Positions 2,772-36,034 of a stretch of 43,858 bases of DNA are shown here, in pieces. Origin of the DNA: Omnitrophica WOR_2 bacterium GWF2_43_52 (lineage in GTDB: Bacteria > Omnitrophota > Gorgyraeia > Gygaellales > UBA12090); assembly GCA_001805445.1 (NCBI GenBank), contig MHGF01000002.1, positions 32,473-76,330 on the forward strand. The letters are read 5' to 3'. Every line of letters begins with the position of its first letter. The stretch's first letter is position 1. A program made the position numbers and the translations under genes. Below the pieces are notes generated by a model. That model made no database searches, had not been told where the DNA came from, and saw only the letters and a program-made list of their open reading frames with translations.

Positions 2772-3380
2772 TCAACCTCTCCTAAGAATAACCTTCGCCT
2801 TTCTTATTCTCAGCCTGTTATCTAAAAAGAGCTTGATAGCTTTAGGATACACTGCATGCTCTACGGCATGAATCCGTGCCTCAAGGCTCTCCTTCGTATC
2901 AGTTTCCTTGATTTTTACTATTTCCTGCAAAATTATAGGCCCATGGTCCATCATTTCATCTACAAAATGCACGGTTACCCCTGTTACCTTGGCCCCAGAG
3001 ATAAAGGCATCACCTATCGCGTGAGCCCCTTTAAACGCGGGAAGTAACGACGGATGGATATTGAGTATTTTATTTCTGTACTGCTTTACGAAGTGAGCGC
3101 TTACTATACGCATAAATCCTGCCAACACAATCAAATCAATCTTTTCTGATTTCAACTTTTTTATAATCTGTTCTTCAAAGTCTTTTTTGCTCAGAAAATC
3201 CCTTCTGTCAACAATAAAAGCTTTTATCTTAGCCTTTACCGCCCTCTTTAGAACATACGCGTCAGGGTTATCACAGACTAACAACTTCAAACGCGCCTTA
3301 AACGTGCCTCTTGTACGCGCATCGACAATAGCCTGAAAGTTTGAACCGTTACCAGAAGCAAACACAGCAATATTTTTCAT
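2772..3380 (-). CDS. purN: Phosphoribosylglycinamide formyltransferase PurN
   Basis: This enzyme of purine synthesis transfers a formyl group from 10-formyltetrahydrofolate to GAR in the cytosol. The 202-residue length is normal for the family. The N-terminal ASGNGSNFQAI loop binds the phosphoribosyl group. The catalytic triad is visible as N107 and H109 in NIHPSLLPAF and D145 in the HFVDEMMDHGPI segment, at almost the same numbering as the Escherichia coli enzyme. It starts at ATG 3380 with a weak AGGAC-like ribosome site. It converges with the lipoprotein gene; no clear terminator is visible in the 54 bases between them. No other purine gene is in the window. Confidence 0.95.
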   Translation of the reverse strand: MKNIAVFASGNGSNFQAIVDARTRGTFKARLKLLVCDNPDAYVLKRAVKAKIKAFIVDRRDFLSKKDFEEQIIKKLKSEKIDLIVLAGFMRIVSAHFVKQYRNKILNIHPSLLPAFKGAHAIGDAFISGAKVTGVTVHFVDEMMDHGPIILQEIVKIKETDTKESLEARIHAVEHAVYPKAIKLFLDNRLRIRKAKVILRRG

Positions 3381-3388
3381 TTTTGTCC

Positions 3389-3435
3389 TTTGGTGTCAGG
3401 CACGAAATTACCATTTGGTGCCTGACACCAAATGG
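3389..3435. repeat. Palindrome built from the motif GGTGTCAGGCAC
   Basis: TTTGGTGTCAGGCAC (3389-3403) is followed by its inverse (3418-3432). Within the right half, CCATTTGGTG and CACCAAATGG form a perfect 10-bp stem with a 5-base loop (3411-3435). A third partial copy, AGTGCCAGACA, follows at 3442. It sits in the purN-rnfB gap. Structured motifs of this kind are typical of REP sequences mobilised by tyrosine transposases. The transposase at 16245-16910 is flanked by a different hairpin, so a direct link is not shown. Confidence 0.6.
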
Positions 3436-3466
3436 TTAAAAAGTGCCAGACATTAAGTTTGCATTA

Positions 3467-4302: not shown

Positions 4303-4427
4303 AACACAAATTTTCACGAATTCACTACGCACGGTATAGCGTGTAGTTCACACGAATTTCCACGAATAAACTCTCCTTAATAAAATTCGTGTTTATTCGT
4401 GTGCAATTCGTGCCTAATTCGTGTTTC
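4303..4427. repeat. Inverted array of 10-11-nt CACGAAT units
   Basis: The left arm holds CACGAATTTC and CACGAATAAA (4351-4370), preceded by weaker copies CACAAATTTT and CACGAATTCA. The right arm holds the inverse units AAATTCGTG, TTTATTCGTG, GCAATTCGTG and CCTAATTCGTG (from 4384). A shorter palindrome with a TATAGCGTGT core lies in between. It fills the rnfA-rnfB gap. A related array is at 25883-26027. Confidence 0.65.
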
Positions 4428-5721: not shown

Positions 5722-5740
5722 ATTTCGCAATAAAACAGTT

Positions 5741-5801
5741 AACGGGTTAACCGGTGAGCCAGTTTGCCAGTTAAACCCGCTTACCCGTTAACCCGCTCAC
5801 C
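5741..5801. repeat. Palindrome between rnfE and rnfD
   Basis: GGGTTAAC (5744-5751) and GTTAACCC (5787-5794) form an exact inverted pair, and the nearby GGTGAGC and GCTCACC extend it. The right arm overlaps the last codons of rnfD. It may add a hairpin between two co-transcribed genes. Repeated GGGTTAA words suggest the same class of short-unit repeats seen elsewhere in the window. Confidence 0.45.
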
Positions 5802-6751: not shown

Positions 6752-7277
6752 TTTGCACCTCAAGCAGAAGCTTATCTTTTACCGCTGAGATTTTTTCCCG
6801 CACTGAACGCAGTAACGCCGAAGATGATACCGTTGCCCCGGCAATCGCATGAATTTCAGGTACTCCATCCACGGTTTTCCCTTTAAACTGGCCAAGGAAA
6901 GGTTTTTCAGTAATTCTGCTGCCTAACCCCGGAGTTTCATTTTGAGATATAATCTTTATATCAGCAATTTCTAAATTCAAGGTTAAGCCAACCACTGCCT
7001 CGATAGCCCCGGAATAACCCTTTGCATACGTTTTAATAACAAACCCGTTTAAACGCTTATTGGGGTCATACGCGGCATAATAGAGTATCGCATTATTTTC
7101 ATAATAAGCTTGAAAGCCCCCGCTTTGCGGCAATACCTCGCTTAAGGCTGCTTCATGCTCCTTCTGTTTTTGCGCCAGTATCTTTGGCTCAGCAATACCA
7201 TACACTACCGCCAATACGGAACTAGCCAGAAAACAAATAAATCCTAAGATGAAGCCGTATTTAACAGTGTCCTTCAT
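6741..7277 (-). CDS. rnfG: Rnf complex subunit G, periplasmic flavoprotein
   Basis: RnfG has one N-terminal membrane helix (8-28) and an extracytoplasmic FMN-binding domain. The 178 residues include the NETPGLGSRI segment and the flavin attachment motif AGATVSSSAL near 145-154, whose second threonine or serine carries covalent FMN in the family. Its stop overlaps rnfD and its start overlaps the last base of rnfC, so the genes are tightly packed. Here rnfG precedes rnfD, whereas the usual order is C-D-G-E-A-B. Confidence 0.94.
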   Translation of the reverse strand: MKDTVKYGFILGFICFLASSVLAVVYGIAEPKILAQKQKEHEAALSEVLPQSGGFQAYYENNAILYYAAYDPNKRLNGFVIKTYAKGYSGAIEAVVGLTLNLEIADIKIISQNETPGLGSRITEKPFLGQFKGKTVDGVPEIHAIAGATVSSSALLRSVREKISAVKDKLLLEVQNAR

Positions 7278-8557
7278 TATTGAGGGATCCTCTGTTTAGC
7301 GTACTTTATTTCCTGGACAATATTTCTTCGCTGCGGGCAGACATAACTGCAGGAGCCGCACTCCATACATTCAAGCGCGCCGTAACTCTTGGCCAAGTCC
7401 CATTTTTTCTTTTCAACCGCTAATCCTATTAAACAAGGGGCAAGCCCCAGAGGGCAACTTTCCACACAACGGCCACAGCGCAGGCAAAAAGCCTCATCTG
7501 GCGGATGAATTTCTTTTTCAGATAAAAAGATAACCCCGCCGGTATTCTTAATCACCGGCGTATGCAGGCTATATTGCGTTAAGCCCATCATCGGCCCGCC
7601 AAAAACAATTCGCTCGGGCTCTTTCTGTAACGGGCCGCACTCAGCTATCAAATCATTGATGGTTGTACCTATGCGCACCAGAAGATTTTGAGGATTGCTT
7701 AGGCAATCCCCAGTTACCGTTACGACCCGTTCATAAAGAGATTTACCCAGATATACTGCTTCATACAGAGCATACGCGGTTGCCACATTATTGACCACTG
7801 CTCCCACATCAAAAGGAAGTTTTCCGGCAGGGACCTCCCTTTTGAGCACCGAAGAAATAATCTGTTTCTCCCCTCCCTGGGGATACCCTGATTTCAAAAG
7901 CTGTACCCTGTACCCTGTACCCTGTACCCGTTTTTCAAACGCCTTGATTGCCTCTGGCTTATTATCTTCAATTGCTATAAAAACATTTTTTACGCCTGTA
8001 CACTTTACCATCAGATCAACCGCCATGAGTATCTGATCTGTTTTCTCAAGCATCAGCCGCTCATCAGAGGTCAAAAACGGCTCACACTCCGCCGCGTTAA
8101 GGATAAAACTATCCAATTGTTTCGGAGGGCTCAATTTTATATGGGTAGGAAACGCGGCGCCTCCCATCCCTACAATGCCGCAATCAAAAATTATTTTACG
8201 GATATCATGAGGAGTAAGCTGTTCTATCTGACTCGATGATAAACTTTGTTCTTTGATTTTCTCATCTAAACCATCGGAAACAATAACAACTGCCTTTGCG
8301 CGGCCTAAAAGCGGATGCGGCATATCATCAATGGCAATAACTTTTCCCGAAACTGAACTATGCACAGGCGAAAAGACTACCTTCTCATCCAAAGTAGCAA
8401 TAAGCTCTCCGGTTTTGACAGAATCTCCCACTTTTACCAGCGGCTGGCATATCTTTCCGATATGCTGTGATAGCGGTATCGTAACCTTTTCGGGAAGTGC
8501 CGCTTTTCGTATCGCTTTATCTCTGGTTAGTTCTTTATGCTCTCGTAACTTTAACAT
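7277..8557 (-). CDS. rnfC: Rnf complex NADH-binding subunit C
   Basis: RnfC is the peripheral subunit that exchanges electrons with NAD(H). The 426 residues begin with a barrel-sandwich domain (VKVGDSVKTGELIA, near 41-54). An NADH/FMN domain follows (GIVGMGGAAFPTHIK near 130, YPQGGEKQ near 227), then an FGGPMMG segment. Two ferredoxin clusters are visible, CLRCGRCVESCP and CMECGSCSYVCP. It is the first gene of the operon. The codons for RVQGTGYRV consist of four copies of a 7-nt unit (7901-7928). Gain or loss of one copy would shift the frame and silence this gene. A MITE-like element lies directly upstream, so the operon promoter is probably in or near it. Confidence 0.95.
   Translation of the reverse strand: MLKLREHKELTRDKAIRKAALPEKVTIPLSQHIGKICQPLVKVGDSVKTGELIATLDEKVVFSPVHSSVSGKVIAIDDMPHPLLGRAKAVVIVSDGLDEKIKEQSLSSSQIEQLTPHDIRKIIFDCGIVGMGGAAFPTHIKLSPPKQLDSFILNAAECEPFLTSDERLMLEKTDQILMAVDLMVKCTGVKNVFIAIEDNKPEAIKAFEKRVQGTGYRVQLLKSGYPQGGEKQIISSVLKREVPAGKLPFDVGAVVNNVATAYALYEAVYLGKSLYERVVTVTGDCLSNPQNLLVRIGTTINDLIAECGPLQKEPERIVFGGPMMGLTQYSLHTPVIKNTGGVIFLSEKEIHPPDEAFCLRCGRCVESCPLGLAPCLIGLAVEKKKWDLAKSYGALECMECGSCSYVCPQRRNIVQEIKYAKQRIPQ
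7901..7928. repeat. Heptanucleotide tandem repeat inside rnfC
   Basis: CTGTACC occurs four times in perfect tandem (GGTACAG on the coding strand). Seven is not a multiple of three, so the copies are read in successive frames and a change by one copy breaks the gene. The encoded residues still fit the family alignment just before the YPQGGEKQ motif, so the present number of copies gives an intact protein. Confidence 0.9.
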
Positions 8558-10078: not shown

Positions 10079-10152
10079 GTCACCATGTCACAAGGTCACA
10101 GGACACAAGTAAAAAAATACGTGGTGACTTTGTGACATGGTGACCTTGTGAC
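10079..10152. repeat. Inverted array of 8-nt GTCAC units
   Basis: The left arm has octamers GTCACCAT, GTCACAAG, GTCACAGG and ACACAAGT (10079-10110). After a short A-rich spacer, the right arm has GTGGTGAC, TTTGTGAC, ATGGTGAC and CTTGTGAC (10121-10152). The arms pair as one long hairpin; 10081-10099 matches the inverse of 10124-10142 at 18 of 19 positions. It lies between the tRNA and the MFS gene, downstream of the tRNA. Confidence 0.7.
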
Positions 10153-10160
10153 CTATTAAA

Positions 10161-16170: not shown

Positions 16171-16949
16171 AATTCCTAACCCGCATTGGAATAAACCAAA
16201 CCAACCTTAATTCCAATGCGGGTTTGGAATTAAGGTTAACCGGCTTATTCTATAATCAAATGTTTGATTTGCTCTAATTCTTTCTGATAGTCAATACGAT
16301 CCTCAACAAATTTCTTATAAGAAGACTGATCCATGTCCAGATAATCATAAAAAGCGCATATCCTATTCTTATCTTCAACCCTGCCAATATATTCCTCATA
16401 GGAAGAACTTTTCCAATCCTCAGGATTGTCCGCCAATGAAATACTTACCGGATTTAAATGGATATAACGAGTCAGATGAAGAAACTGTTCATCCGTTTCC
16501 ACCAAAACACTTCTAAATCTCCCTTCCCATAAAGGGCATTTTCTTTTGTATCTTACATTAAAGTATTTACTGTAACTTTTAAGAATTACATTAACAAATT
16601 TAGAGATTCCGCCAGGCTTTAACTGTTTGAGGACTAAATGGATATGAGTTGGCATCAGACAATACGCAAGTATTTCTACTATTTTCACTGAATCGACAGA
16701 CAAAGCTTGAGATTTAACTTCTTCCAGGTTACTTCTGTTTTCTATAAATAAAGAGAATTTAGAGGGAGGATTTTCTACCGCATAGAAACACACCGCCGCC
16801 AACATTCTTTCAAAATCATAGTCGGAATTAAAAATTCTGAATCCAGCAATACTTTTGGTAAAGATATGATATATCTGGGATTCCACTAATGGAGTTTTGC
16901 GATAAGGCATTATTTTACCTCCAATTCCAATGCGGGTTTGGAATTAAGG
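16171..16949. mobile_element. REP/RAYT unit: tyrosine transposase flanked by hairpin repeats
   Basis: The hairpin CCTTAATTCC-(11)-GGAATTAAGG stands at 16205-16235. A nearly identical copy in the same direction (AATTCC AATGCGGGTTT GGAATTAAGG) is at 16923-16949. An inverted copy of its core lies further out at 16171-16192, with one mismatch. The copies enclose the single transposase gene. This is the arrangement of REP-associated tyrosine transposases, which cut and join single-stranded DNA at such hairpins. The unit lies between mnmG and apgM. Confidence 0.85.
16245..16910 (-). CDS. rayT: REP-associated tyrosine transposase (Y1/HUH family)
   Basis: The 221-residue protein belongs to the IS200-like Y1 transposases. 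The metal-binding HUH motif is P-T-H89-I-H91-L-V-L and the likely nucleophile is Y113 in KSYSKYFNVRY. RYIHLNPV and EDWKSSSY(E)EYIG are typical of the chromosomal RAYT subgroup. An N-terminal basic PYRKTPL stretch precedes the fold. It ends within a few bases of one hairpin repeat and starts within 13 bases of the other. It appears intact, so repeats of this type could still be moving in the genome. Confidence 0.9.
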   Translation of the reverse strand: MPYRKTPLVESQIYHIFTKSIAGFRIFNSDYDFERMLAAVCFYAVENPPSKFSLFIENRSNLEEVKSQALSVDSVKIVEILAYCLMPTHIHLVLKQLKPGGISKFVNVILKSYSKYFNVRYKRKCPLWEGRFRSVLVETDEQFLHLTRYIHLNPVSISLADNPEDWKSSSYEEYIGRVEDKNRICAFYDYLDMDQSSYKKFVEDRIDYQKELEQIKHLIIE

Positions 16950-18242: not shown

Positions 18243-18250
18243 AATGTTTC

Positions 18251-18367
18251 GGTTACAAACAGTTACTAATGGTTACTATCAGTTACTATCGGTTACTGTC
18301 AATTTTCCACTATTCTGTAACTATTAGTAACAGCTTGTAACCGATAGTAACAATTAGTAACTATTGC
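18251..18367. repeat. Inverted array of 10-nt GTTAC units
   Basis: Five exact-length decamers of the pattern RGTTACTATC fill 18251-18300. After a 17-base spacer, five decamers in inverse orientation (TAACTATTAG, TAACAGCTTG, TAACCGATAG, TAACAATTAG, TAACTATTGC) fill 18318-18367. The array takes up almost the whole gap between nrdJ and apgM, leaving only a few bases on each side. As RNA it would form one long hairpin between the two genes. Confidence 0.85.
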
Positions 18368-20812: not shown

Positions 20813-21853
20813 TTATTCTTTCGACGATAATTGCTTTGTAAGGGCAACAAGAAGCGCGAAAGTTTCTTCGGCACGCTGCACAGACACCCCGCTTAAGCCG
20901 CACGCGGGAGTTATTAAGGCAGGCTTTTCTTGTATCCCCATTTTTTCAAGAAGGCTTGCCTGCGCGGGTAAAGGCTCTTCGGAAGCTGTCGGGACAATGC
21001 CCCAGGCTAAAATACCGCCTCTGGCTGAAAAATCCTTTAGTTCGTTACGGTAAAGAAGAAGATTATCCAAATAATTATAGGCATCAAAATTCAGTATATC
21101 GATACCGGCTCGCAGGACAATTGACCAATCGGTATTCCCGCAACAATGTATTCCTGCCAACGCCCCTTCCTGATGAATTGCCAGCGCTACATCATTAAGC
21201 ATTCCGACGACTGACTCGGTTTTAATATTAAAAAAACTCGATCCGATAGAAACCAAATACGGCTCGTCAATGAAGATAATTACGCGCCGGTGGCCATCCC
21301 TCGTCCCTCGTCCCTCATCCATCATCCCTCGTAATTTCCGCACCTGCCAACGGGCCTTCATCGCTAAGGCCTTCACCAGAACATCGCAAAATTCCTCATT
21401 GTAGATGATAGCCTTCTTATGCTCATCGGTAACCGATAACCCAAAACTTATCGGCCCTATGGTATGGCCTTTGACATACCGCGGGTTTACGGCCCTAGGG
21501 CCACTCTCCAGAAACGCGTAAAGGCCCGAGGCATACTCTTGGCTTATCGCAAAATAATCAACATCCTCGGCAAGATAATGTTCATAGGCGGCTGCTACCT
21601 CCTCATCATAGCCTGCTCTTTGGGTATTAACGTAGATATGCTTTGCTTTTTCATCAATAACAATGCCGGGCAGTCCTTGACTGTACTGCGCGTACATATT
21701 TTCTTTGAAATCACGTTTGGGAAGTTGAGGCCAAAAGGGAATATCATTAGCGAGATAGCGAAAAATAAAATCGCAGGCGTCCTGAGGCTCTAGGTGCGGG
21801 AGGCTGCCAATTCCTGTGGTAAGAAAGGTAGTGAGAGAAAAACGGGTTTCCAA
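20813..21853 (-). CDS. Core MetE-like methyltransferase
   Basis: The 346-residue protein has the C-terminal barrel fold of cobalamin-independent methionine synthase and related methyltransferases, without the N-terminal half. It opens with TTGIGSLPH. The zinc site is visible as H236-C-C238 in GIHCCGNTDW and C318 in TPACGLSG; a FIDEPYL strand precedes them. Such short 'core' enzymes usually take the methyl group from a corrinoid protein or use other donors, so the exact reaction is open. The only start before an in-frame stop is TTG at 21853, with no good ribosome site. Residues of the RGMMDEGRGTRDGH insertion come from a heptamer repeat at 21296-21330. Confidence 0.8.
   Translation of the reverse strand: METRFSLTTFLTTGIGSLPHLEPQDACDFIFRYLANDIPFWPQLPKRDFKENMYAQYSQGLPGIVIDEKAKHIYVNTQRAGYDEEVAAAYEHYLAEDVDYFAISQEYASGLYAFLESGPRAVNPRYVKGHTIGPISFGLSVTDEHKKAIIYNEEFCDVLVKALAMKARWQVRKLRGMMDEGRGTRDGHRRVIIFIDEPYLVSIGSSFFNIKTESVVGMLNDVALAIHQEGALAGIHCCGNTDWSIVLRAGIDILNFDAYNYLDNLLLYRNELKDFSARGGILAWGIVPTASEEPLPAQASLLEKMGIQEKPALITPACGLSGVSVQRAEETFALLVALTKQLSSKE
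21296..21330. repeat. Heptanucleotide tandem repeat inside the MetE-like gene
   Basis: Five units of the pattern RTCCMTC lie in tandem: ATCCCTC, GTCCCTC, GTCCCTC, ATCCATC, ATCCCTC. They encode a polar, glycine-arginine-rich insertion just before the conserved FIDEPYL strand. The total of 35 bases is not a multiple of three, so the surrounding frame must have been compensated. Confidence 0.85.
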
Positions 21854-25882: not shown

Positions 25883-26027
25883 AGTTACCGCTGAAAAACC
25901 TTTATTTTGCACGAATAGGCACAAATTACACACAAATACACACGAATTGCTTCGTCGCTGTATTCGTGATGATTAGTGTGTAATTCGTGGGAATTCGTGT
26001 TTAAAAGACGCTTTTTCAGTGATAACT
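25883..26027. repeat. Nested inverted repeat with 10-11-nt CACGAAT units
   Basis: The outer arms AGTTACCGCTGAAAAA (25883-25898) and TTTTTCAGTGATAACT (26012-26027) match in inverse at 14 of 16 positions. The inner arms, CACGAATAGG-CACAAATTAC on the left and GTAATTCGTGG-GAATTCGTG on the right (25910-25933, 25976-25999), pair at about 20 of 24 positions. The unit is the same as in the rnfA-rnfB gap. It lies in the 454-base gap between the ROK gene and the TPR gene. A further GC stem, GCCCCGC/GCGGGGC, follows at about 26091-26111, right behind the TPR gene stop. Confidence 0.7.
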
Positions 26028-26117: not shown

Positions 26118-27803
26118 TTATTTACTTACCAGCTTTTCCTGTTGATCATATACGTCAACCATCTCCAAAGTACTCCCCACAACTCCGGAAGGAGAAACTA
26201 CCACGAGGTTGACCACCTTTGTGCCTGCGCTCTGGTACTGCGCGGTAAACTCAGCCGTTGTGGGAGCTAGATAATTACCGCCCAAATCACCCGACCAGAG
26301 ATACGTAAGCTCGGGGGCAAAACATCCCGTTTCCATTTGCAGCTGCATAAGGCTGAAGGTGACTTGCTCGTGCTGAAAGCTCAAGGCTTTATATGGAGCG
26401 ACAAAAAGTTCAGGGGCAGCCTGATGGAGCGCGAGTTTCTTAAAAACCGAATCTAAAAACATCTTAAGGTTATATTCAATAGGCCCAAGTTCCTGAATTT
26501 CCTTCTGCCTTTCGTTAACGCGCTCTAAAAGGTTTTCAAAATCGGCATTCCCTGTAATCAGCTCTAAAAGCTTGGTATAATCCACCTTTGCGGGCTCAAG
26601 GTTTTCCTCGTAGTGATAGAGCAGGCCTCTCTGATAGAGGCTTTCTGCCACATAGCCTAAAGACACATTACGGCTGATAATATTCTGCCAATGGGTAAGC
26701 GCGTTTTCTTTTTTATCTAAAATATAGGCAGAGAGAATTCCCAGTTTAAATTCTGCCTCGTCAACATACCTGCTTTTGGGAAAGTCGGCTAGTAAAACGG
26801 CATACTCTTCCGCAGCTCTTTGATACTCCTTCTGCCTTTGCAAATTATACGCCCTGATATATTGCAGCTCTTGGGTAAAATACTCCTTACCGCAGGCTTC
26901 CTTCAAGATGGCGAAAACTTTTTCCGCGTAAACAGGATCACTGCCTTTACTCCAGCCATCGGTAGCAAAACTTTTGATAATAAGCGTTAACTCACCGGCA
27001 AGATTATCTTTCGCGAGTGAACCCTTAACAATCTCTATATAGCGGTCATAGATAATTTCCGCTAATTCACTGTTAGACTCTTTCAATGCCCCCTCCGCGG
27101 CAGCCTGCAGTTTAAGAGGCGACTGCTCAACATTAAGCAAACAACTGACATAACTGCCATAGACCGATTTAGCAAATCCTTTTTCCCCATGCCGGGCTAA
27201 GGTATCGGCAACATCCTTAAGTACCTGGATATCAACCGCTGACTTTGCGTACACGTTCACCATATCCAAAAGCTTCTTAAGGGCATCCTCTGCCTGCTCA
27301 TCATTGTGCGTTTTATGGCCTATCCAGGATAATACCTGGGCGCGTATCCCTACAGCCGAAACAGGGCAGGATTGCGCTATTTTCTCGGTTTCCGCAAACA
27401 GCTCCTGGCGATAGGTACTGCCTAAATCAAAATATTCTTTCCAATTTTGAGTTTCCTCCCAATGCAGAAGCTGATGAAAACGGCATAAAGCAATATAATA
27501 ACCCACAGGGAGTTCGCAGGCTAAAGGCTTTTTCTTATCAAGCTTCTTTAAGAACGCGACAAAAGAATCATACTGCTGCTGGCCAAAATACATTTCAGAC
27601 AGCATCTCTAAGCTTTTTACCGCCTTCTTGTCTTTTACATCGGATAAAATCTGTGCTTCAAGTTGTTTTATTTTCTTAAGTTCATCCTGAGCAGGGCTGA
27701 CAGCTTCCGCCACAGGCGGACCCGCCTTCGGCGGGAAAAACTGAAAGCTGAAAACTGAAAGCACACTACATAACACCCATACTCGCAATCCACGGTTTTT
27801 CAT
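26118..27803 (-). CDS. Secreted TPR-repeat protein with PKD-like end
   Basis: The 561-residue protein has a signal peptide (about 1-33, with basic KNRGLR then LSVFSFQFF). A long helical region follows with TPR-like pairs, clearest at 330-400 (YQRAAEEYAVLLADFPKSRYVDEAEFKLG). The C-terminal beta domain has PKD-like features (LTYLWSGDLGG, then TKVVNLVVVSPSG). Its ATG overlaps the stop of the upstream hydrolase gene by 4 bases (ATGA), so the two are coupled. It is the last gene of the carbohydrate cluster and may be an extracytoplasmic scaffold. Three 7-nt units (27741-27761) and a CCCGCC/GGCGGG stem lie within its signal-peptide codons. Confidence 0.75.
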   Translation of the reverse strand: MKNRGLRVWVLCSVLSVFSFQFFPPKAGPPVAEAVSPAQDELKKIKQLEAQILSDVKDKKAVKSLEMLSEMYFGQQQYDSFVAFLKKLDKKKPLACELPVGYYIALCRFHQLLHWEETQNWKEYFDLGSTYRQELFAETEKIAQSCPVSAVGIRAQVLSWIGHKTHNDEQAEDALKKLLDMVNVYAKSAVDIQVLKDVADTLARHGEKGFAKSVYGSYVSCLLNVEQSPLKLQAAAEGALKESNSELAEIIYDRYIEIVKGSLAKDNLAGELTLIIKSFATDGWSKGSDPVYAEKVFAILKEACGKEYFTQELQYIRAYNLQRQKEYQRAAEEYAVLLADFPKSRYVDEAEFKLGILSAYILDKKENALTHWQNIISRNVSLGYVAESLYQRGLLYHYEENLEPAKVDYTKLLELITGNADFENLLERVNERQKEIQELGPIEYNLKMFLDSVFKKLALHQAAPELFVAPYKALSFQHEQVTFSLMQLQMETGCFAPELTYLWSGDLGGNYLAPTTAEFTAQYQSAGTKVVNLVVVSPSGVVGSTLEMVDVYDQQEKLVSK

Positions 27804-29140
27804 TTTGACTTCACCTTCTTTTTATTCTTACCATTAATAATTGGCTTCCTCCAGAAATCCCGTAATGTATAATAAGCCTTGCGGGGAATCCTTGTGTTTA
27901 CACCGTTATCTAGCTCCTCGGATAAGGCAACAATGCCAAACCATTCCTCATTCATATTCATATTACGCTCTGCCTTAATATCAAAATAGTAGCTGCCGTT
28001 TGACCAATGGCTTTCGGTATCATGAATCTTCCAGGTATCCGAAGCCGCTTCATTATGTTTCCACCACTCGTCAGTCCATTCAAACATTGTGCCGCCTAAA
28101 CAATTTTGCGCGCCTTCCTTATAAGGATAGCTGTTTTTAAAAAGCTCTCTCCACTGCGACTCCAAAAAGAGCGCCTGCATATTCTGGTCTTCCTTTTTAA
28201 GATCAGCATCATAGCTGTCAGCGCCAAACTCACTCATTATCACCGGCTTATCAAAGGTTGCCCGCAGCGATTTAAAAAGGTTCCCAAAAGTCTTTCCTCG
28301 GTAGACAATAAGCGCTACCACATCAATATCGGGACAAACTTGATTCGCAAAATCAAGCGAAATCAACTCTCCATTACCCAAAGCCACCGGATGGTTCGGG
28401 TCTATCTTATGTATCTCCTGAGCTAATTCATTGACAAAACTATAATAAATGCCCGCGCGGATGTCGCAGCGCTTTTTTAAGTCGGCAATGGCATCGATCT
28501 CCTGAGAACCCCAGGGATTCACTCTTTCTGAAAACGAATAGTTATTTTCATTCCCCAATATCCACAATAAGATTCCCGGTTCATCCTTATATGTTTTGAC
28601 CATACGCAGGACATCTTCTTTTATTTTCTGCCTGAAATCATCGTCAGCATAGCGCGGGCAGGGGTATTCCCAAAACCCCAGCCAATGGCCCATAATAGAA
28701 CGGATTCCATAGAGTTGATACAGGCCGTTGATTACCTTTTTAGCGTCTTCCATATTCTCCGGAGACTGATAAAAACGCACCGTATTAATGCCCATGTCTT
28801 TCATCAATTTCCCGTCAATCTTCCAAGGCTGCGCGGGATCACTCCAGAAATTTGCTTCGCTATTTCCCTGGCCAATAGCGACAGGCGAATAACAAACGCC
28901 CTTAATAAAATAAGGTTTATTTTTGACTAATAATTGGTAGGCGTTATTTTTGAGCTTGCGGATTCTTACTTCCGGTTGGCGCTCTGCGGCTATTACGTGC
29001 GAAGACAACAGACAACAGACGAAAACAATAACGAGAAACGACGGACGAGAGACGACAGACGAGAGACGAAAAAATAAAATCGTCCTTCGTCCTTCACCCC
29101 TCGTCCTTCGTTCTTCTTTATTATTCGTACTTAATCTCAT
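27800..29140 (-). CDS. Secreted clan GH-A glycoside hydrolase-like protein
   Basis: The 446-residue protein has an N-terminal signal region (FLVIVFVCCLLSSHVIA, about 30-50), then a beta/alpha barrel like the catalytic part of GH2 and GH5 enzymes. The acid/base glutamate is E198 in LGNENN and the nucleophile E304 in MSEFGAD. Aromatic sugar-binding residues follow (EWTDEWWKH). Substrate cannot be assigned; beta-mannan, beta-glucan and glucuronide groups are all in this clan. It overlaps the beta-sandwich gene by 20 bases and the TPR gene by 4. Residues 9-47 are encoded by a heptamer array (29001-29115). Confidence 0.82.
   Translation of the reverse strand: MRLSTNNKEERRTRGEGRRTILFFRLSSVVSRPSFLVIVFVCCLLSSHVIAAERQPEVRIRKLKNNAYQLLVKNKPYFIKGVCYSPVAIGQGNSEANFWSDPAQPWKIDGKLMKDMGINTVRFYQSPENMEDAKKVINGLYQLYGIRSIMGHWLGFWEYPCPRYADDDFRQKIKEDVLRMVKTYKDEPGILLWILGNENNYSFSERVNPWGSQEIDAIADLKKRCDIRAGIYYSFVNELAQEIHKIDPNHPVALGNGELISLDFANQVCPDIDVVALIVYRGKTFGNLFKSLRATFDKPVIMSEFGADSYDADLKKEDQNMQALFLESQWRELFKNSYPYKEGAQNCLGGTMFEWTDEWWKHNEAASDTWKIHDTESHWSNGSYYFDIKAERNMNMNEEWFGIVALSEELDNGVNTRIPRKAYYTLRDFWRKPIINGKNKKKVKSK
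29001..29115. repeat. Inverted 7-nt array inside a signal-peptide region
   Basis: Ten heptamers run from 29001 to 29070 (such as ACAGACA, GGACGAG, AGACGAC, AGACGAG). After the core AAAATAAAAT come five inverse heptamers CGTCCTT-type (29081-29115). The 27 bases 29065-29091 are identical to 32737-32763 in the second hydrolase gene. The array lies wholly inside the coding region and encodes RRTILFFR followed by Ser/Val-rich hydrophobic residues. Confidence 0.88.
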
Positions 29141-30269
29141 CCAAATAGAAGGTACAACCTTCCGGATTTACATCAACGTTTGTGGCCCAGCAAAAACCTC
29201 CACTGATATAGGAGAGGTCTTTCCCCTTGAGATCAATGGTATACTGCTGCCAATCCTTGGTCAGGATCACCGGCCCAATGGAGGCGATGTCAGAATCAGA
29301 GTATTCACCCATGATTCCGCCAAGCTTGAATTCCTCAATACGCTCTCCCCCGTTTTCTCCTCGCGCCCAAAAGGTGGCTTTCGTGGCTGTACTCAAGTCA
29401 AAACCGCCATCAGTGGTGCCCCAGTTATTCGCGGGATTCTGCCAATACATACCAGCCCAACGCGCGCCTTGAGCGCCTTTACCATTGTAAATAATTTTTA
29501 CGCAGGTATCTCCCATATAAGGATTTTCCTTCCATCCCGTATCCAACTTTATATCACCGTAATCACCCATCCAACCCGAAGGAATATAGTGGTTACCGAT
29601 GGAACGCCTATCGGCAAAAACGTAAAAAGGTATCTTCTGCGCTTCTTTCTTTGCCGCTTTTATCGTTGGGTCTGCTTCATATTTCATATCGTCAAAATAA
29701 AAAGTAGCGCCCTCCGGATTTTGGTCAACCGTTGCTACCCAGGCAAAGCCGCCGCTAATATACGAGAGGTCCTTGTCAACTAAATTCACGCTAAATTGCT
29801 GCCAGGTGTCGGTCAATTCAATCGGCCCAAACTCCACTTCAGCGGTGTCCGGATACGTACCCTTAATCCCGCCAACTTTGACCTTCTGCACTATCTCGCC
29901 GCCTTTTGCGCCCCGCGCCCAAAAACTCAATTTTGTCATACCGGTCAAGTCAAACCCACCTTTTTTTGTGCCCCAGTTATTCGCGGGATTCTGCCAATAA
30001 ACACCCGCCCATCCCTGGTTCTGGGCCTTTTTGGCGGTATACGTAAACTGTATGCAGGTCTTTCCGTCATGAGGTGTATCCGTAGACTGATCGTTGATTT
30101 TGATATCTCCAAAATCCCCCATCCAACCTGAAGGAATATAATGATTGTCTGAGGTCTGCCTATCGGTATAAATACTAAAAAACTTCCCCTTTCCCTGCTC
30201 TTCAGCTGCCCCTGCAGCAGAAACTGCCAATAAACAGGAAAGTACCAATACTAAAAGCTTTTTTCCCAT
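29121..30269 (-). CDS. Secreted protein with two tandem beta-sandwich (CBM-like) domains
   Basis: After a signal peptide (1-21, LVLSCLLAVSAAGAA), the 382 residues hold two copies of one domain of about 165 residues (about 30-200 and 208-382). Shared landmarks are HYIPSGWMGD(F/Y)GDIK, G(V/M)YWQNPANNWGT, GGFDL, FWARG and KDLSYISGGF. The aromatic-rich faces and the FYxDDMKYE ending resemble jelly-roll carbohydrate-binding modules, but I cannot name the family. GGAGAA precedes the ATG at 30269. The 174-base gap to the upstream hydrolase has no strong promoter. It probably binds a polysaccharide outside the cytoplasm for the neighbouring hydrolases. Confidence 0.8.
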   Translation of the reverse strand: MGKKLLVLVLSCLLAVSAAGAAEEQGKGKFFSIYTDRQTSDNHYIPSGWMGDFGDIKINDQSTDTPHDGKTCIQFTYTAKKAQNQGWAGVYWQNPANNWGTKKGGFDLTGMTKLSFWARGAKGGEIVQKVKVGGIKGTYPDTAEVEFGPIELTDTWQQFSVNLVDKDLSYISGGFAWVATVDQNPEGATFYFDDMKYEADPTIKAAKKEAQKIPFYVFADRRSIGNHYIPSGWMGDYGDIKLDTGWKENPYMGDTCVKIIYNGKGAQGARWAGMYWQNPANNWGTTDGGFDLSTATKATFWARGENGGERIEEFKLGGIMGEYSDSDIASIGPVILTKDWQQYTIDLKGKDLSYISGGFCWATNVDVNPEGCTFYLDEIKYE

Positions 30270-30442
30270 CGCTATTCTCCTTCCTTAGCCAACCTATATT
30301 TTTACCGCTATTTTTTAGAGTCTCGCTCTACTCTTTTTCCATACACAGAATACCGCACGCTAAGCGCCTCGTGAGTAAAACTATTTTTTAATTTTATTCT
30401 TTTAGGTGCCAATGCTATGGCTTTGGGTGCTGCCTCCTTTCT

Positions 30443-32815
30443 CTACTCATTCCACATTTTTTGATACAGATAATAGCTCTTACGCAGATGCCTCTTAAAA
30501 GGGCTATCCTTACCATCGGACTGGCTAGCCACGCCTAACCACTCTTCATGCATATAGCCGTCAGGAAACGGCCCGGTAAAGAAACCCTTGGTATCGTGTT
30601 TTCTCGGTTCATAGGCTTTCCACCATTCATCAACATACTGAAAAACAATACCCCCGATACTGTTACCCACACCTTCATTACCTGCCATATTCAACACGAT
30701 GTCTTCCCATGCCCCTTGATGGTAATTTGCTTGCGCCTCTTCGGTTTCTTCCTGCGTTAAGCCTTCCGCGTACGCGGGACAGCCAAATTCTGTAGGCAGC
30801 ACCGGTTTATCCGCTTCTTCTTTGACTGCCTGCCAAAGATTGCCGAAACCATAATCACCCCGGTATACATTAGCTCCGAAGATATCAATGTCAGGGCAGT
30901 ATTTTCCAAAACGGTCTAAGTAAAGCGTATCGCCGCTTGCTATTGCTACAGGATGATAGGGGTCTAATGATTTTATTAAAAGAGCCGCCTCATTGGCAAA
31001 CTGAAAAAAACTGTCCGGGTCCTTATCCGCGTTGCAGGCTACCCCATAGACATTTTCATTCCCTAAGAGCCAAAACAATAGATACGGCTCGTCTTTTGAT
31101 TCTTCCACCATCTTCTTTACCGACTCTAGCATATTCTTTTTATGTTCGGGGTTACGGTAATCAGTCCCCGGATTCCACGGTGCTTTAGAGCCCAGGGCAT
31201 ACTTACCGAAAAAATCTCCCATAATAACCCTGATGCCATAGGTGGAATACAGGTCTCTCAGCAATTCCTTATTGATTGGCTTAGGATGGTGGTAAAGCCG
31301 TATGGCATTGACACCCATATCTTTCATTAATTGAAAGTCACCGATTGGCTTTTGCGGGTTCTCTTCAAGATAGCTGTCATACGGGCCGTCAATTTTTCCA
31401 TTTTTATTAAAGTCTTCCTTCATCCAATTCCCCAAGCTTCCTTCATCTGGAGATTGGCCGATTTTCGTAGGTTGATAGGTAATTGCCTTAACAGTAAAAG
31501 GCTTTTCATCAACCAAAAGCTGCCACGAACCATCCTGGTATTGTAGAAGTTTAACCTGCCCCTGGCCAATAAGCCCTTTAAGATCCTTCTTTTTCTTAAG
31601 TTTACTGACTACACTCTTTAATCTGCTAAAAATGTTCATTTTCTTAACTGGCGCCTTTTCAAACTTTCCAGGGCTGGTTATAACGATATCATTACTTATG
31701 TTATTATCATAGCCGTTAACGATATGTATCCTTGTATCAACAAGCTTTAAGCCTAACTCAGGATGCTTACGCAAGAGAAAACGTATCTTATACATCGCAG
31801 CCTGGCCTACATACCATGGGGTATGCCAATAGGTCCAGCCCACTGCCCCCGGATAATGCGCGATGATAGCATAATAGCATTTAAGCGCGTGCTTTATCAA
31901 GCCGCTCTTTTCCAGGATTAATCCGGTATAATATAACTTTACACCTCCCGGCTCATTACACGTTGCCCACTTTAAAAACGCCGCTTCTAAATCCGGCGAG
32001 TGCACATAATCCCAATGAGAGCCTTCAAGCTTCTTTTCTTTCCTTAATTTCTGAAAATTAGGATCCCAGCGCACTGAAGTAGTATTGGGATAAATTCCCT
32101 CTCCCACCGCGCGTGAGAGCCCTTCCTGGTCAGCAATGACATATTTATATTCCTTACTGCTTACGTTGGTAAACTCGCCGTATTTTTCATAATCTACGAC
32201 ATCTTCCTTTCCTGAATCATAAAGGATTACCGCGGTCTTATCCGCTTTAGGCTTCTCCGGACTTTTCAAGTCTTTTGTTTTTCCGGAAAGCTCTTCATTA
32301 ATTTTATCAATACTTTCCTGGGAAACTTTCGCGACTTTCCAGTATACCCCCCGGGAAGGGTCCCAGGCTACCGCGTAACGGTAGTGGTCAATGACATACT
32401 GAAATTTTTCCTTTGCCTCAAGTAACCTTTCCTGGCGCATCAGGGCTTCAGCCTGAATAAAACAGGCCACTGCCACATCGCTGAGCGGGGTTTGGTCTTT
32501 TGTAGGATAATCCTTTAAAACAGCATGCTGGCTATCCGCTTCTTTTTGGTATATATCAATACATTTTTGGGTATACTCTAATACCTCATCGAATTTCCGC
32601 TCGCCCTGCGCAGCCCAGGCCTTAGTGATCAGCTCGCCCGAAGCAGGTTTTTCTTGGGCAAAGCATGTAATAGAAGATAGTAGATAGAAGATAGAGAATA
32701 CATGCCATAACGAAAGACGAGAGATGAGGGACGTGGGACGAAAAAATAAAATCGTCCTTCGTCTTAGCGAAGCGTTCGTCCGTCCTCCATCGTTAAACTT
32801 GTGATTAAGAATCAT
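30443..32815 (-). CDS. Secreted TPR plus clan GH-A hydrolase-like fusion
   Basis: The 790-residue protein has an N-terminal signal region (about 30-52), helical TPR-like segments (about 55-150 and 270-355), a basic linker near 395-410, and a C-terminal GH-A-type barrel (about 425-790). The likely acid/base is E587 (LGNENVYG) and the nucleophile E676 (TEFGC). DFNKNGKIDG at 468 looks like a calcium loop. The barrel parallels the hydrolase at 27800-29140, so they probably arose by duplication. Its ATG overlaps the permease stop (ATGA), and AGGAG is about 9 bases upstream, so this start is firm. Residues 9-48 come from the heptamer array at 32671-32790. Confidence 0.82.
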   Translation of the reverse strand: MILNHKFNDGGRTNASLRRRTILFFRPTSLISRLSLWHVFSIFYLLSSITCFAQEKPASGELITKAWAAQGERKFDEVLEYTQKCIDIYQKEADSQHAVLKDYPTKDQTPLSDVAVACFIQAEALMRQERLLEAKEKFQYVIDHYRYAVAWDPSRGVYWKVAKVSQESIDKINEELSGKTKDLKSPEKPKADKTAVILYDSGKEDVVDYEKYGEFTNVSSKEYKYVIADQEGLSRAVGEGIYPNTTSVRWDPNFQKLRKEKKLEGSHWDYVHSPDLEAAFLKWATCNEPGGVKLYYTGLILEKSGLIKHALKCYYAIIAHYPGAVGWTYWHTPWYVGQAAMYKIRFLLRKHPELGLKLVDTRIHIVNGYDNNISNDIVITSPGKFEKAPVKKMNIFSRLKSVVSKLKKKKDLKGLIGQGQVKLLQYQDGSWQLLVDEKPFTVKAITYQPTKIGQSPDEGSLGNWMKEDFNKNGKIDGPYDSYLEENPQKPIGDFQLMKDMGVNAIRLYHHPKPINKELLRDLYSTYGIRVIMGDFFGKYALGSKAPWNPGTDYRNPEHKKNMLESVKKMVEESKDEPYLLFWLLGNENVYGVACNADKDPDSFFQFANEAALLIKSLDPYHPVAIASGDTLYLDRFGKYCPDIDIFGANVYRGDYGFGNLWQAVKEEADKPVLPTEFGCPAYAEGLTQEETEEAQANYHQGAWEDIVLNMAGNEGVGNSIGGIVFQYVDEWWKAYEPRKHDTKGFFTGPFPDGYMHEEWLGVASQSDGKDSPFKRHLRKSYYLYQKMWNE
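32671..32790. repeat. Second inverted 7-nt array inside a signal-peptide region
   Basis: Four heptamers TAGAAGA, TAGTAGA, TAGAAGA, TAGAGAA (32671-32698) are followed by AACGAAA, GACGAGA, GATGAGG, GACGTGG, GACGAAA (32709-32743), an A/T core, and inverse units ATCGTCC, TTCGTCT and degenerate copies. The 27-base core is identical to that at 29065-29091. It encodes RRTILFFR and then the hydrophobic core up to LLSS of the signal peptide. Confidence 0.88.
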
Positions 32816-33660
32816 CCTACAATCGCTCCTTGAGTTACTCCTTTAACAATATATTTCTGCATCAGCACATAGACGAAAATTATCGGAAGCGCCGCGATAG
32901 TTAAACCCGCCATCAAAAGATGGTACTTTGTAATATATTCCCCTTGAAATGTCATGAGGGCTACCTGCAGAGGATAGAGCTTTCTGTTATCTAAAATCAA
33001 ATACGCTAGCAGATACTCATTCCAGACATTTAAGGCATTAAATACTACTACTACCGCAAGCACCGGCTTTGCCAAAGGCAATGCCACATTCCACCAAATA
33101 CCAAACTTAGAACAGCCGTCAATTCGCGCCGCGTCTTCCAGTTCGCGCGGCATTTTATCAAAAAAGGTCTTCAGCAGAAATATGCTGGTTGACAACCCCA
33201 CATTAATCATACAAAGAATATAGCCTATTCGCGTATCCCTAAGCCCCAATTTATTCATAAGCAGGTACAAAGGAACAAAACTACCCGGAATAGGTATCAT
33301 CATCGCGGCCATAAAGGTATAAAACATAATATTTCTTCCGGGGAAACTAAAACGGGAAAAGGCGTAGGCGGCCAGGGAAGCTACCACAATGATACCGATA
33401 ACGACGGCAGTGGTATAAAAAATACTGTTGATGAAATACCTGCCAAAACCTCCCTCCTTCCACGCAAGGGCGTAATTTTCCCAATGCATCTGTTGAGGAA
33501 TCAACGAGGTATCGGAAAAAATGGTGGATTGGGTCTTCAGGCTTGAGCTAATCATCCACACTAAAGGAAATAAACAGCTCACGGCTATGGTAAGAAGAAA
33601 GATATGGATAAGCGTATTTAAGGTAATGCTTTTTATCTTATAGTATAAAGGATTCTTCAT
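32812..33660 (-). CDS. ABC sugar transporter permease, MalG-like
   Basis: This 282-residue inner-membrane permease of the carbohydrate uptake type 1 family has six helices. The cytoplasmic EAA loop that contacts the ATPase reads ELEDAARIDGCSKFGIWWNVALPLAKP. The C-terminal VKGVTQGAIVG ending is typical of MalG. It pairs with the MalF-like gene just upstream. No MalK-type ATPase gene is in the cluster, so a shared ATPase encoded elsewhere is likely. The stop overlaps the next hydrolase start by 4 bases. Confidence 0.94.
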   Translation of the reverse strand: MKNPLYYKIKSITLNTLIHIFLLTIAVSCLFPLVWMISSSLKTQSTIFSDTSLIPQQMHWENYALAWKEGGFGRYFINSIFYTTAVVIGIIVVASLAAYAFSRFSFPGRNIMFYTFMAAMMIPIPGSFVPLYLLMNKLGLRDTRIGYILCMINVGLSTSIFLLKTFFDKMPRELEDAARIDGCSKFGIWWNVALPLAKPVLAVVVVFNALNVWNEYLLAYLILDNRKLYPLQVALMTFQGEYITKYHLLMAGLTIAALPIIFVYVLMQKYIVKGVTQGAIVG

Positions 33661-33667
33661 CTCTCCG

Positions 33668-33727
33668 TAGGGGCGCGGTCTCCGCGCCTTTCATCATCAT
33701 TAGGGCGGGGGGAAACCCCGCCCCTAC
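33668..33727. repeat. Palindrome between the two permease genes
   Basis: GTAGGGGCG (33668-33676) and CGCCCCTAC (33719-33727) are exact inverted ends. Inside are two smaller stems, GGCGCGG-type and GGGCGGGG/CCCCGCCC. The sequence fills the 69-base space between the MalF-like and MalG-like genes and its end provides part of the ribosome-site region (CGGAGAG) of the MalG-like gene. Such an mRNA hairpin can adjust the relative output of two genes. Confidence 0.7.
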
Positions 33728-33729
33728 TT

Positions 33730-34611
33730 TTAGGCTCCTTTAGCCTGGCTTCTTTTAGAAAAACGGTACTGAATAAAAGAAATAGTAACCAATATAACCC
33801 CAAAGAGTATCCCTTGGGCGCAGGCATACCCATACCGTGAGCCATCCATAGAGCCGAGGATCCTTAATATGGGAACTTGGGTATGGTATGCGGGCCCGCC
33901 GCCGGTCATTGCCATGATTAATACAAACGCCTGCATGGTGCCTAAGATAGTAAGTATTGCCACAAGTATCGCCACAGGAACCATAAGCGGAATAGTAATC
34001 TTGGTAAAGGTGTACCATGAGTTCGCTCCGTCAACCTTCGCCGCTTCGTAAAGTTCACGGGGAATAGTCTGCAACCCTGCCAGAAATATAAGGAACCCCC
34101 AGCCAAACCCCTTCCATGAATGAACAATCGCCACGCAGTTAAGGGCGGTCTTGGGATCGGTTAACCACGTCCTGGTCAAATCGGATAAGCCTACCTGAGT
34201 CAGCCAACTATTCAATAACCCGTAATTACCTTCCAATATCCACTGCCACACAAGCCCAACGACCACCTCTGAAAGAATAGGGGGAATAAAAAATACCAAT
34301 CGGTACCAATTCTTAAACCGTATCTCTCTATCACATGCCCATGCCAGAAGAAATGCCAAAATATTCTGAAACGTAAGGGCAACCAGCGTCATCCATCCTG
34401 CCTGCAGCATCGATTTCCACCATATAGGGTCAGAAAAAATTATTTCTTTAAAATTGGTAAGCCCCATAAATTGTTTGGCGGCAGATACGCCGTCCCACTC
34501 ATAGAGGCCTAAATAAAAAACTTGCGAAAAAGGATAGATATAAAAGATGGAAAAGATAACAACTGCGGGCAGGACAAAAAGGTAATTTTCTAGGGTTGAT
34601 TTTAATTTCAT
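33730..34611 (-). CDS. ABC sugar transporter permease, MalF-like
   Basis: The 293-residue permease has six helices and the EAA loop ELYEAAKVDGANSWYTFTKITIPLMVP. Its short N-terminus, without the long MalF periplasmic loop, is usual for this family outside enterics. It forms the channel with the MalG-like partner and receives substrate from the solute-binding lipoprotein encoded upstream. The ribosome site before the ATG at 34611 is weak. Confidence 0.94.
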   Translation of the reverse strand: MKLKSTLENYLFVLPAVVIFSIFYIYPFSQVFYLGLYEWDGVSAAKQFMGLTNFKEIIFSDPIWWKSMLQAGWMTLVALTFQNILAFLLAWACDREIRFKNWYRLVFFIPPILSEVVVGLVWQWILEGNYGLLNSWLTQVGLSDLTRTWLTDPKTALNCVAIVHSWKGFGWGFLIFLAGLQTIPRELYEAAKVDGANSWYTFTKITIPLMVPVAILVAILTILGTMQAFVLIMAMTGGGPAYHTQVPILRILGSMDGSRYGYACAQGILFGVILVTISFIQYRFSKRSQAKGA

Positions 34612-34708: not shown

Positions 34709-36034
34709 TTACTTATTCTTCTTTTTAGCTAATTCTCTTTCTTTTATTTTTTGCACTTCCTGAGCAACCTGCTCCGGGGTTTTCTCTCCGATAATAATAG
34801 ATTGGATTCCTTTATCAAATGCCTCTATCACTTGAGAAAACTCCGACACACCCCATACCCGAGGATGGGTAGAATACTCGATTGCTTTTGAAAACTCCGC
34901 CAAGGCCGGCGAAATCCTGCCTGCCGCCCCTTTATTTGCCGGCAGGTTCCTTGTTTCTTCTGCCAAAAACATTTGCTGCTCTTTATCGCTAAGCCATTGT
35001 AGAAATTTGATGGCCCCTTCTTTATTCTTGGACTTATCGTACACCATGAAGGAAGAGCCTGCCCCACCCCAAACACTTACCGGGAATTTATCTGAAATTC
35101 TGGGCAGAAACATTACCCCGTATTTTAAATCCGGATTCATGCCCTGATACACATTCACGCACCAGGAACCGTTAAAGGCAAACACAGCCTTGCCATTGGC
35201 AAAAAGCTGCTCGGCAGTTTTGTTTACCATACTCACTAAACCGTTATAAAGAAGCCCCGCGTCCTGCATCTGTTTAAATAAGGTAAATACCCGAATCCAA
35301 TCAGGATCAGTATACGGCACCTCGCCCCGTATGGTTAATAATACTTTATCCTTTCCCATAAGGTTAAAGGCAAAGTTATTGGCGATACAATCTATCATCC
35401 ATATTTCCCCCCAGCCGCTTACTAACCCTTGCTTCTTGGCTTCTTTTATCTTTTGGCCTATGGCAAGAAAGTCCTCCCATTTTACAGGGGGGCGCTCAGG
35501 GTCTAAGCCTAATTCCTTAAATAAGTCCTTATTATAGAGCATCATTATTGACGTCATATCAATAGGAACCCCATAAATTCCCGGGGCAACCCCGTAAGAA
35601 TTGCCCTCTATAAATTCGCTGGTTGCCAAGGCCTTAGAGAAGAATCCTTTTTCCCATTCCTGATTATTCGCCTCCATAAAAGGAGCCAAATTACTAATAT
35701 GCCCCACCTTCACATACGCGGCAAAATCCCGTTTTTCACCTAACACACTAAATATATCGGGAAGATTATTTCCCTGTGCCGCTGCCCTTACCTTTTGGGC
35801 ATAAGCGTCTGAAGGGGCGTATAACTCGAAATTTACCTTAATTCCTGTCTTTTCCTCATACTTTTTGGATAACTCCTGCAAAGCGCTCTCTCTGTCAGTC
35901 ATCCAGTGCCAGACAGTAAGGGAAATCTTTTTAGCCTCGGACGGATTGGAGGCTCCTTCATTTTTTTGGCCACAGCCTGAAAGTATAATGCCTGTAAAGA
36001 ATACTATAAGAATAGCAAACCTTCCAAATTTCAT
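34709..36034 (-). CDS. Sugar-binding lipoprotein of an ABC transporter
   Basis: This 441-residue extracellular solute-binding protein of family 1 (MalE-like) has a signal peptide and lipobox LSGC with the lipidated cysteine at 21. The mature fold shows SLTVWHWMTDRE, VKVGHISNLAPF, YNKDLFKELGLDPERPPVKWEDF and FAFNGSWCVNV, all usual landmarks. It captures an oligosaccharide at the outer face of the inner membrane. It is the first gene of the operon behind the promoter at 36141-36169. GGAG precedes the ATG by about 10 bases. The ligand is unknown; the neighbouring hydrolases suggest a plant- or algal-type glycan. Confidence 0.94.
   Translation of the reverse strand: MKFGRFAILIVFFTGIILSGCGQKNEGASNPSEAKKISLTVWHWMTDRESALQELSKKYEEKTGIKVNFELYAPSDAYAQKVRAAAQGNNLPDIFSVLGEKRDFAAYVKVGHISNLAPFMEANNQEWEKGFFSKALATSEFIEGNSYGVAPGIYGVPIDMTSIMMLYNKDLFKELGLDPERPPVKWEDFLAIGQKIKEAKKQGLVSGWGEIWMIDCIANNFAFNLMGKDKVLLTIRGEVPYTDPDWIRVFTLFKQMQDAGLLYNGLVSMVNKTAEQLFANGKAVFAFNGSWCVNVYQGMNPDLKYGVMFLPRISDKFPVSVWGGAGSSFMVYDKSKNKEGAIKFLQWLSDKEQQMFLAEETRNLPANKGAAGRISPALAEFSKAIEYSTHPRVWGVSEFSQVIEAFDKGIQSIIIGEKTPEQVAQEVQKIKERELAKKKNK

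Follow-up and report, generated by a model that had tools for sequence, protein, structure and literature searches.

Palindromic heptanucleotide arrays as recurrent candidate signal peptides in a transporter and hydrolase cluster of Omnitrophota

How does a gene come to have its export signal written in repetitive DNA? The question is raised by two genes in a 43,858-nucleotide stretch of the Omnitrophica WOR_2 bacterium GWF2_43_52 genome (contig MHGF01000002.1, positions 32,473 to 76,330; hereafter the window, whose own numbering is used for its features). Both genes encode secreted proteins with similarity to glycoside hydrolase family 2 (GH2), here called GH-A and GH-B, and both begin with palindromic arrays of heptanucleotides. 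The original prediction made from this DNA was that such arrays may be a ready source of new signal peptides. The analysis points to a narrower answer. The arrays are likely members of a rapidly changing class of palindromic heptanucleotide repeats, mostly intergenic in Omnitrophota, that repeatedly took over a few coding stretches tolerant of sequence change. These stretches are probably the Sec signal peptides of a cluster of ATP-binding cassette (ABC) transporter and hydrolase genes (GH-A, GH-B, a tetratricopeptide repeat (TPR)-type protein, and a solute-binding protein (SBP)) together with one loop-plus-helix segment of an Lnt-like protein.

GH-A (30443–32815, minus strand) is a secreted protein of 790 amino acids with a GH2-like TIM barrel at its C terminus, and GH-B (27800–29140, minus strand) is a secreted GH2 TIM-barrel-like hydrolase recognized from its domain match and translation. 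The Glyco_hydro_2_C TIM-barrel domain (Pfam PF02836) scores 50.4 bits in GH-A and 26.7 bits in GH-B, both above the curated cut-off of 21. The array of GH-B (29024–29125, minus strand), located by its hairpin arms and lag-7 arrays, consists of the arms 29024–29069 and 29080–29125 around the loop AAAAATAAAA at 29070–29079, and it codes for the n-region and most of the h-region of the signal peptide. In GH-A, the palindromic array (32706–32795, minus strand) is centered on the loop AAAAATAAAA at 32742–32751 and codes for the n-region and the start of the h-region; a second array of ATAGAAG units (sense TCTATCT; 32670–32695, minus strand) codes for the h-region FSIFYLLSSI. The predicted 27-base core common to both genes, GACGAAAAAATAAAATCGTCCTTCGTC, was recovered as exact matches at 29065–29091 and 32737–32763. 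Also as predicted, the arrays occupy matching places in the two proteins and are read in one frame (codons ∼9–48, with RRTILFFR in both and LLSS ahead of a cleavage-like site). A third secreted protein had been proposed to carry CTGAAAR units, and such an array is present in the signal peptide of the TPR-type exported protein (26118–27803, minus strand; identified by translation and domain scan), where AAAACTG-type units at 27737–27760 (minus strand) code for VFSFQF. Within this gene, a GC-rich hairpin, CCCGCCTTCGGCGGG, comes after the array and encodes the c-region PPKAGPPVAEA.

GH-A has no start besides its first ATG within the first 80 codons, and the sole alternative start in the same range of GH-B is a TTG at codon 45. 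If the proteins begin at these starts, the arrays are therefore translated. By hydropathy, charge, and motif, the encoded segments have the features of Sec signal peptides, that is, a positive n-region, a hydrophobic h-region, and small residues at −3 and −1. The mean hydropathy of the h-region is 3.63 in GH-B (LVIVFVCCLL), 1.85 in GH-A (FSIFYLLSSI), and 2.44 in the TPR-type protein (VWVLCSVLSV). These properties support a function of the window arrays as Sec signal peptides.

Could the shared core simply have been inherited? In this account, GH-A and GH-B stem from a duplication and the array is ancestral to both, which would fit two GH2-like genes that stand near each other in an operon and have the 27-base core in common. 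Their barrels, however, are only 39% identical, and they are found as a neighboring, syntenic pair across the order. In the close relative L091, moreover, GH-A carries an AAATTCA array and GH-B an AGAGTAC array, and yet another array is present in a third exported gene there. Judged by identity and gene order, GH-A and GH-B are old syntenic paralogs rather than recent duplicates, and common inheritance of the array is very improbable. Because the two genes are so far diverged and paired across the order, the shared core reflects copying of array DNA within the lineage and not the age of the genes; it implies that array DNA was copied recently, either from gene to gene or from one source. Among GH-A orthologs of 74 to 77% identity, the alignment begins only around residue 39, close to where the array ends. 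The original prediction had named two observations that could undo it, namely a recent duplication with similarity running evenly past the array and relatives whose genes start downstream of it. The first is contradicted by the 39% identity and the pairing across the order, and the genes of relatives do not start downstream of the array.

The 20-base center of the core occurs in two copies only in the 2.47-Mb source genome, with up to two mismatches allowed. The loop of the window arrays, AAAAAATAAAA (29070–29079 and 32742–32751), recurs in GH-B of L091 (at ∼12954), which belongs to another genus, between unrelated arms and in the opposite gene orientation. Almost no other such loop is found besides these three, and it was discarded as the hallmark of a single element.

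Has the same site been occupied in other species? The GH-A protein matches 80 loci in the named genome collection, which belong to uncultured Omnitrophota and a few records titled “bacterium”; they include the closed genome of Candidatus Velamenicoccus archaeovorus, and nearly all others are metagenome assemblies. Genes were predicted with a home-made caller, and arrays were detected as ungapped self-matches at fixed lags with a score of at least 10 to 12. A lag-7 array is present at the signal-peptide stretch in 36 of 91 distinct GH-A orthologs, compared to 0 to 3 at lags 4, 5, 6, 8, 9, 10, 11, and 13, and lags 14 and 21 are likewise raised as multiples of 7. Two control stretches from the same 91 genes contain no lag-7 array. 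The units differ among relatives (CATTTGT, ACCCTTA, TTACAGC, TACGACT, TATTGTG, CTATCCG, and ATCTGCC), and the arrays are confined to the codons from the start to the cleavage site. A tree built from the mature proteins requires 28 changes in array presence, against a mean of 28.5 for shuffled labels, and well-supported branches force at least 18; the ortholog counts themselves are not numbers of independent events, for which the tree provides a lower bound. The replacement is best seen in the close pair L094 and L095 (∼0.055 changes per site). Here, the permease end and the mature enzyme are nearly identical in their DNA, and the arrays between them are unrelated, one having AAATTCA/CATTTGT units, the other AAAAGGC/TTACTTT units. 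In the array-less pairs L110/L131 and L101/L123, the signal peptides are almost unchanged. These data support the view that GH-A orthologs acquired signal peptides apparently built from arrays many times independently and with different units.

The apparent insertions could also be read as a single old array with changing letters. An array would then have formed the GH-A signal peptide from early in the history of the order, with slippage and hairpin-templated repair rewriting the unit in place. Distant lineages bear arrays at the same site, and the close relatives L100/L103 and L151/L154/L155 retain one unit family with variation, as this would predict. In 55 of the 91 orthologs, however, no array was detected, short and well-conserved signal peptides are among these, array presence is not clustered on the tree, and L094 and L095 have no unit in common despite their small divergence. 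Turnover in place is thus unlikely as the general explanation, although it is the alternative to which we give the most weight, and independent acquisition is preferred. An origin in wrongly chosen start codons or in assembly errors at repeats is hardly credible. All but a few of the genomes are metagenome assemblies, but the missing alternative start of GH-A, the stop-free sense frame across the arrays, and the repetition of the pattern in dozens of independent assemblies stand against it; the arrays in the closed genome of Ca. V. archaeovorus (L154) make an assembly artifact unlikely.

Two further features of this site were noted. The array-less GH-A genes of L104, L085, L133, and L139 have n- and h-regions of the type CHCEEF...RLLRSLAMT with strong folding, which looks like another palindromic element, and GH-A of L103 holds a CCTGCCTGTCCGGCAGGCAGG hairpin within its array. 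Several kinds of palindromic repeat seem to accumulate at the GH-A signal-peptide site.

What makes such an array usable as coding sequence? With a unit of seven, each frame passes through the same seven codons, and a stop-free unit is therefore open in all frames. The sense frame is open in all GH-A arrays, and 62.5% of them are open in the other two frames as well, compared to 20% of control coding stretches. In intergenic arrays, all three frames are open in 15 of 27 pyrimidine-rich strands vs 1 of 27 purine-rich strands. In every frame, the pyrimidine-richer strand has a mean hydropathy of about +0.8 to +1.0, and the purine-richer strand one of about −0.8 to −1.1. The argument of the original prediction, that pyrimidine-rich heptamers spell hydrophobic peptides whatever the frame, is upheld by these values. 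Hairpin arms occur in 26 of the 91 GH-A signal-peptide stretches and in none of 91 control stretches; 16 of these hairpins are purine-first, 10 are mixed, and none is pyrimidine-first. A palindrome that passes from purines to pyrimidines, read in either direction, yields hydrophilic and often positive residues followed by hydrophobic ones. In GH-A orthologs, the median distance from the array to a downstream cleavage-like motif, which often reads xFA|Q/E, is 21.5 nt, and the c-region therefore seems to be supplied by the host sequence.

At the level of sequence, the comparison thus demonstrates recurrence, species-specific units, the complete exchange of an array between unchanged flanks in two close relatives, confinement between start and cleavage site, open frames, and frame-independent hydropathy. 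The recurrent capture as an export signal is probably explained by arrays that are readable in every frame and whose pyrimidine-rich strand spells hydrophobic peptides.

The palindromes could instead matter as RNA. A hairpin at the coupled permease/hydrolase start could control translation or the mRNA segment, and the signal peptide would merely be what the hairpin encodes. The start codon of GH-A overlaps the permease stop by four bases (ATGA), and the folding z-score over the signal-peptide stretch, relative to shuffled sequence, averages −1.41 in genes with arrays and about 0 in control stretches. In array-less orthologs, however, the mean z-score is −0.51 and the excess over control is not significant (p = 0.18), half of the arrays have no partner arm in the stretch, and the Lnt site (see below) is internal to its gene. 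Because of the array-less folding and the internal Lnt site, hairpins at the operon junction are not the common factor, and as a general explanation they are improbable; in single cases a hairpin may play a role.

Which genes are taken over, then, and which are spared? At the starts of orthologs of the cluster genes, arrays are found in 17 of 58 TPR-type, 9 of 59 SBP, and 10 of 70 GH-B genes, and in only 2 of 67 and 3 of 74 genes for the two permeases. A further site lies in an Lnt-like gene that adjoins an M23 peptidase gene, and that we take from its sequence to be an apolipoprotein N-acyltransferase. In 9 of 20 genomes (the array-bearing loci include L254, L258, L259, L262, L265, L270, L275, and L278), internal arrays, which differ from each other, immediately precede the catalytic domain and code for a loop and a membrane helix; the catalytic domain itself has no array in any of the 20. 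Elsewhere, arrays are rare in coding DNA. The survey of the source genome covered ∼0.68 Mb of readable bases, about a quarter of the genome, in which some stretches are read as N or masked. Lag 7 gave 42 segments there, lag 14 gave 29, and lag 8 gave 13, compared to 1 to 7 for each of the other lags; a few runs of N are included in the counts. Outside the window, array density in this genome is 0.11/kb in signal peptides (2 arrays), 0.141/kb in intergenic DNA (24 arrays), and 0.036/kb in other coding sequence, and in relatives it is 0.077/kb in intergenic DNA vs 0.015/kb in other coding sequence.

Several points weigh against the takeover of tolerant signal peptides as a full account. No array was found in 98 exported genes from unbiased samples of relatives or in 18 OmpH genes, and only 1 of 83 orthologs of a carbohydrate-binding module (CBM)-like secreted protein of the cluster has one, so that the tolerance of signal peptides alone fails to explain which genes are hot. 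Clear hairpin partners inside the signal-peptide stretch are missing for 18 of the 36 GH-A arrays. Purine-first hairpins prevail in intergenic DNA as well (11 vs 3); this order was therefore dismissed as a signature of selection. Signal peptides were called from hydropathy, charge, and the −3/−1 motif, on genes from the home-made caller. The exported genes of two closed genomes of relatives (57 and 51) are likewise free of arrays. Together with the 98 array-free genes and a signal-peptide density in the source genome close to the intergenic one, these counts show no general enrichment of arrays in signal peptides. Given the densities by region and the three samples of exported genes, arrays are chiefly an intergenic feature, and hot coding sites are few. 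The original prediction consequently stands in part. Judged by sequence, arrays do act as signal peptides, and repeatedly so in orthologs, but the general form, in which they are a ready source throughout the genome, is not supported by the same counts. The effect is concentrated in certain families, and one of these, Lnt, has its site inside the protein and not in a signal peptide.

How might an array become fixed at such a site? An array that lands in or replaces a tolerant stretch would usually remain open, because 7 is coprime to 3 and one seven-residue peptide is read in all frames. Its pyrimidine strand would provide the hydrophobic h-region, its purine arm the positive n-region where the palindrome is ordered as purine arm, loop, and pyrimidine arm, and the host the conserved c-region with its xFA|Q/E motif. 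After loss of the ancestral signal, the array could not simply disappear but only be swapped for another working one, which would turn these sites into absorbing hot spots. Arrays might be made and exchanged by transposition, by template switches at hairpins, or by slippage, with the units being renewed in situ. A bolder version, to which we lend somewhat less than even credence, is that an active process in Omnitrophota writes purine-to-pyrimidine palindromic heptamer arrays, that particular genes depend on these arrays for their export signals or membrane helices, and that signal peptides are rebuilt from unrelated repeat DNA within a few percent of protein divergence. If so, signal peptides would be born repeatedly from non-coding repeats.

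The cluster amounts to a natural experiment, repeated many times, on how repeat DNA can yield a functional targeting signal, in one protein across dozens of species with differing arrays. It offers a simple physical reason, the period of 7 set against the codon length of 3, with pyrimidine-rich strands that are hydrophobic and stop-poor in every frame. It also bears on the old question of how random or repetitive sequence can give rise to signal peptides and membrane helices, and it carries a warning for annotation, as heptamer arrays at gene starts in Omnitrophota genomes are coding.

How do the arrays compare to known repeats? Rickettsia palindromic elements (RPEs; Ogata et al. 2000, 2002) and the protein-coding palindromes of Wolbachia and other bacteria (summarized in PMC2996958) lie inside open reading frames (ORFs), are read in frame, and occupy positions that tolerate insertions. 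The GH-A arrays resemble them as inverted repeats inside an ORF and in frame (arms in 26 of 91 stretches, sense frame open). RPEs, however, are families of homologous copies at assorted positions of a genome, whereas the Omnitrophota arrays are heptamer tandem repeats whose units vary by genome and which retake the same orthologous signal-peptide site. A dispersed family of homologous copies was not found, as the 20-base center exists in two copies only and units differ between genes and genomes.

Heptanucleotide simple sequence repeats (SSRs) are closer in period. The repeats of cyanobacteria known as short tandemly repeated repetitive sequences (STRR) are of this length. According to an earlier survey cited in PMC4679880, heptamer repeats are the most abundant class in many genomes; they are mostly intergenic and proposed to arise by polymerase slippage, with the TAACTGA repeats of Beggiatoaceae as one example (PMC4679880); GGGAATC repeats occur in Xanthomonas and related ones in Nostoc (PMC4692102). 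The Omnitrophota arrays have in common with them the head-to-tail unit of 7 nt far above other lengths and the mostly intergenic location. In contrast, those SSRs are direct repeats of one or few unit types that avoid coding DNA (TAACTGA contains stops), and the Omnitrophota arrays are purine/pyrimidine palindromes of many unit types that were captured as coding sequence. Borg tandem repeats are fast-evolving, create protein segments, and are enriched in extracellular and membrane proteins, with in-gene units divisible by three that mostly encode disordered regions (PMC9879509). They are alike in being fast-evolving tandem repeats that make new protein segments, but the Omnitrophota unit of 7 is not divisible by three, and its arrays encode a signal peptide or a membrane helix. 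Within a partial coverage of the literature, no report was found of palindromic or heptamer arrays that form signal peptides or repeatedly replace those of one orthologous gene.

Repetitive extragenic palindromic (REP) elements are palindromes of 20 to 40 nt with a GTAG or CGTC tag at one end; they are associated with RAYT transposases, and some are intragenic (PMC3733652). The Omnitrophota arrays are likewise palindromic and in part intragenic, and GTAG and CGTC are contained, at period 7, in the two commonest array units of the source genome (L071, C10, C3, and C8 loci). The tag there recurs every 7 nt, however, and relatives lack it. As a general feature of the arrays, the tags were rejected because they are confined to the source genome. 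This genome has 12 Y1_Tnp domains. One Y1_Tnp gene (IS200-like, RAYT-type) lies at 16245–16910, and a 25-nt palindrome, AATTCCTAACCCGCATTGGAATAAA..., is located just past its 3′ end (16171–16231).

The remainder of the cluster is also encoded on the minus strand. GH-A, GH-B, and the TPR-type protein are accompanied by two ABC sugar-transporter permeases (BPD_transp_1; 32812–34611) upstream of GH-A and by the SBP (34709–36034), all assigned by domain scan. The CBM-like secreted protein (29121–30269) has an ordinary, array-free signal peptide and serves as an internal negative control. Across the window, self-similarity at lag 7 exceeds that at almost every other lag; similarity above the threshold also occurs at lags 10 and 14. 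Two arrays lie inside coding sequences with the frame open and outside signal peptides, namely CTGTACC (four copies, 7901–7929) in an RnfC-like gene (7277–8557) and TCCCTCG (five copies, 21297–21330) in the coding sequence 20813–21853. Palindromic arrays of other periods (a 10-mer, the 8-mer GTGACCTT, and ATTCGTG) are mostly intergenic and are found at 18249–18365, 25894–26015, 10079–10154, 4349–4425, 5738–5800, and 3380–3452. Long 8-mer arrays occur inside predicted coding sequences, GGACACCA at 22551–22711 of C8 (L072) and GTGACCTG at 8870–9015 of L021. Finally, relatives contain open frames of 35,000 to 70,000 residues (G033:C2, G014:C2, G032:C9, and G029:C8).

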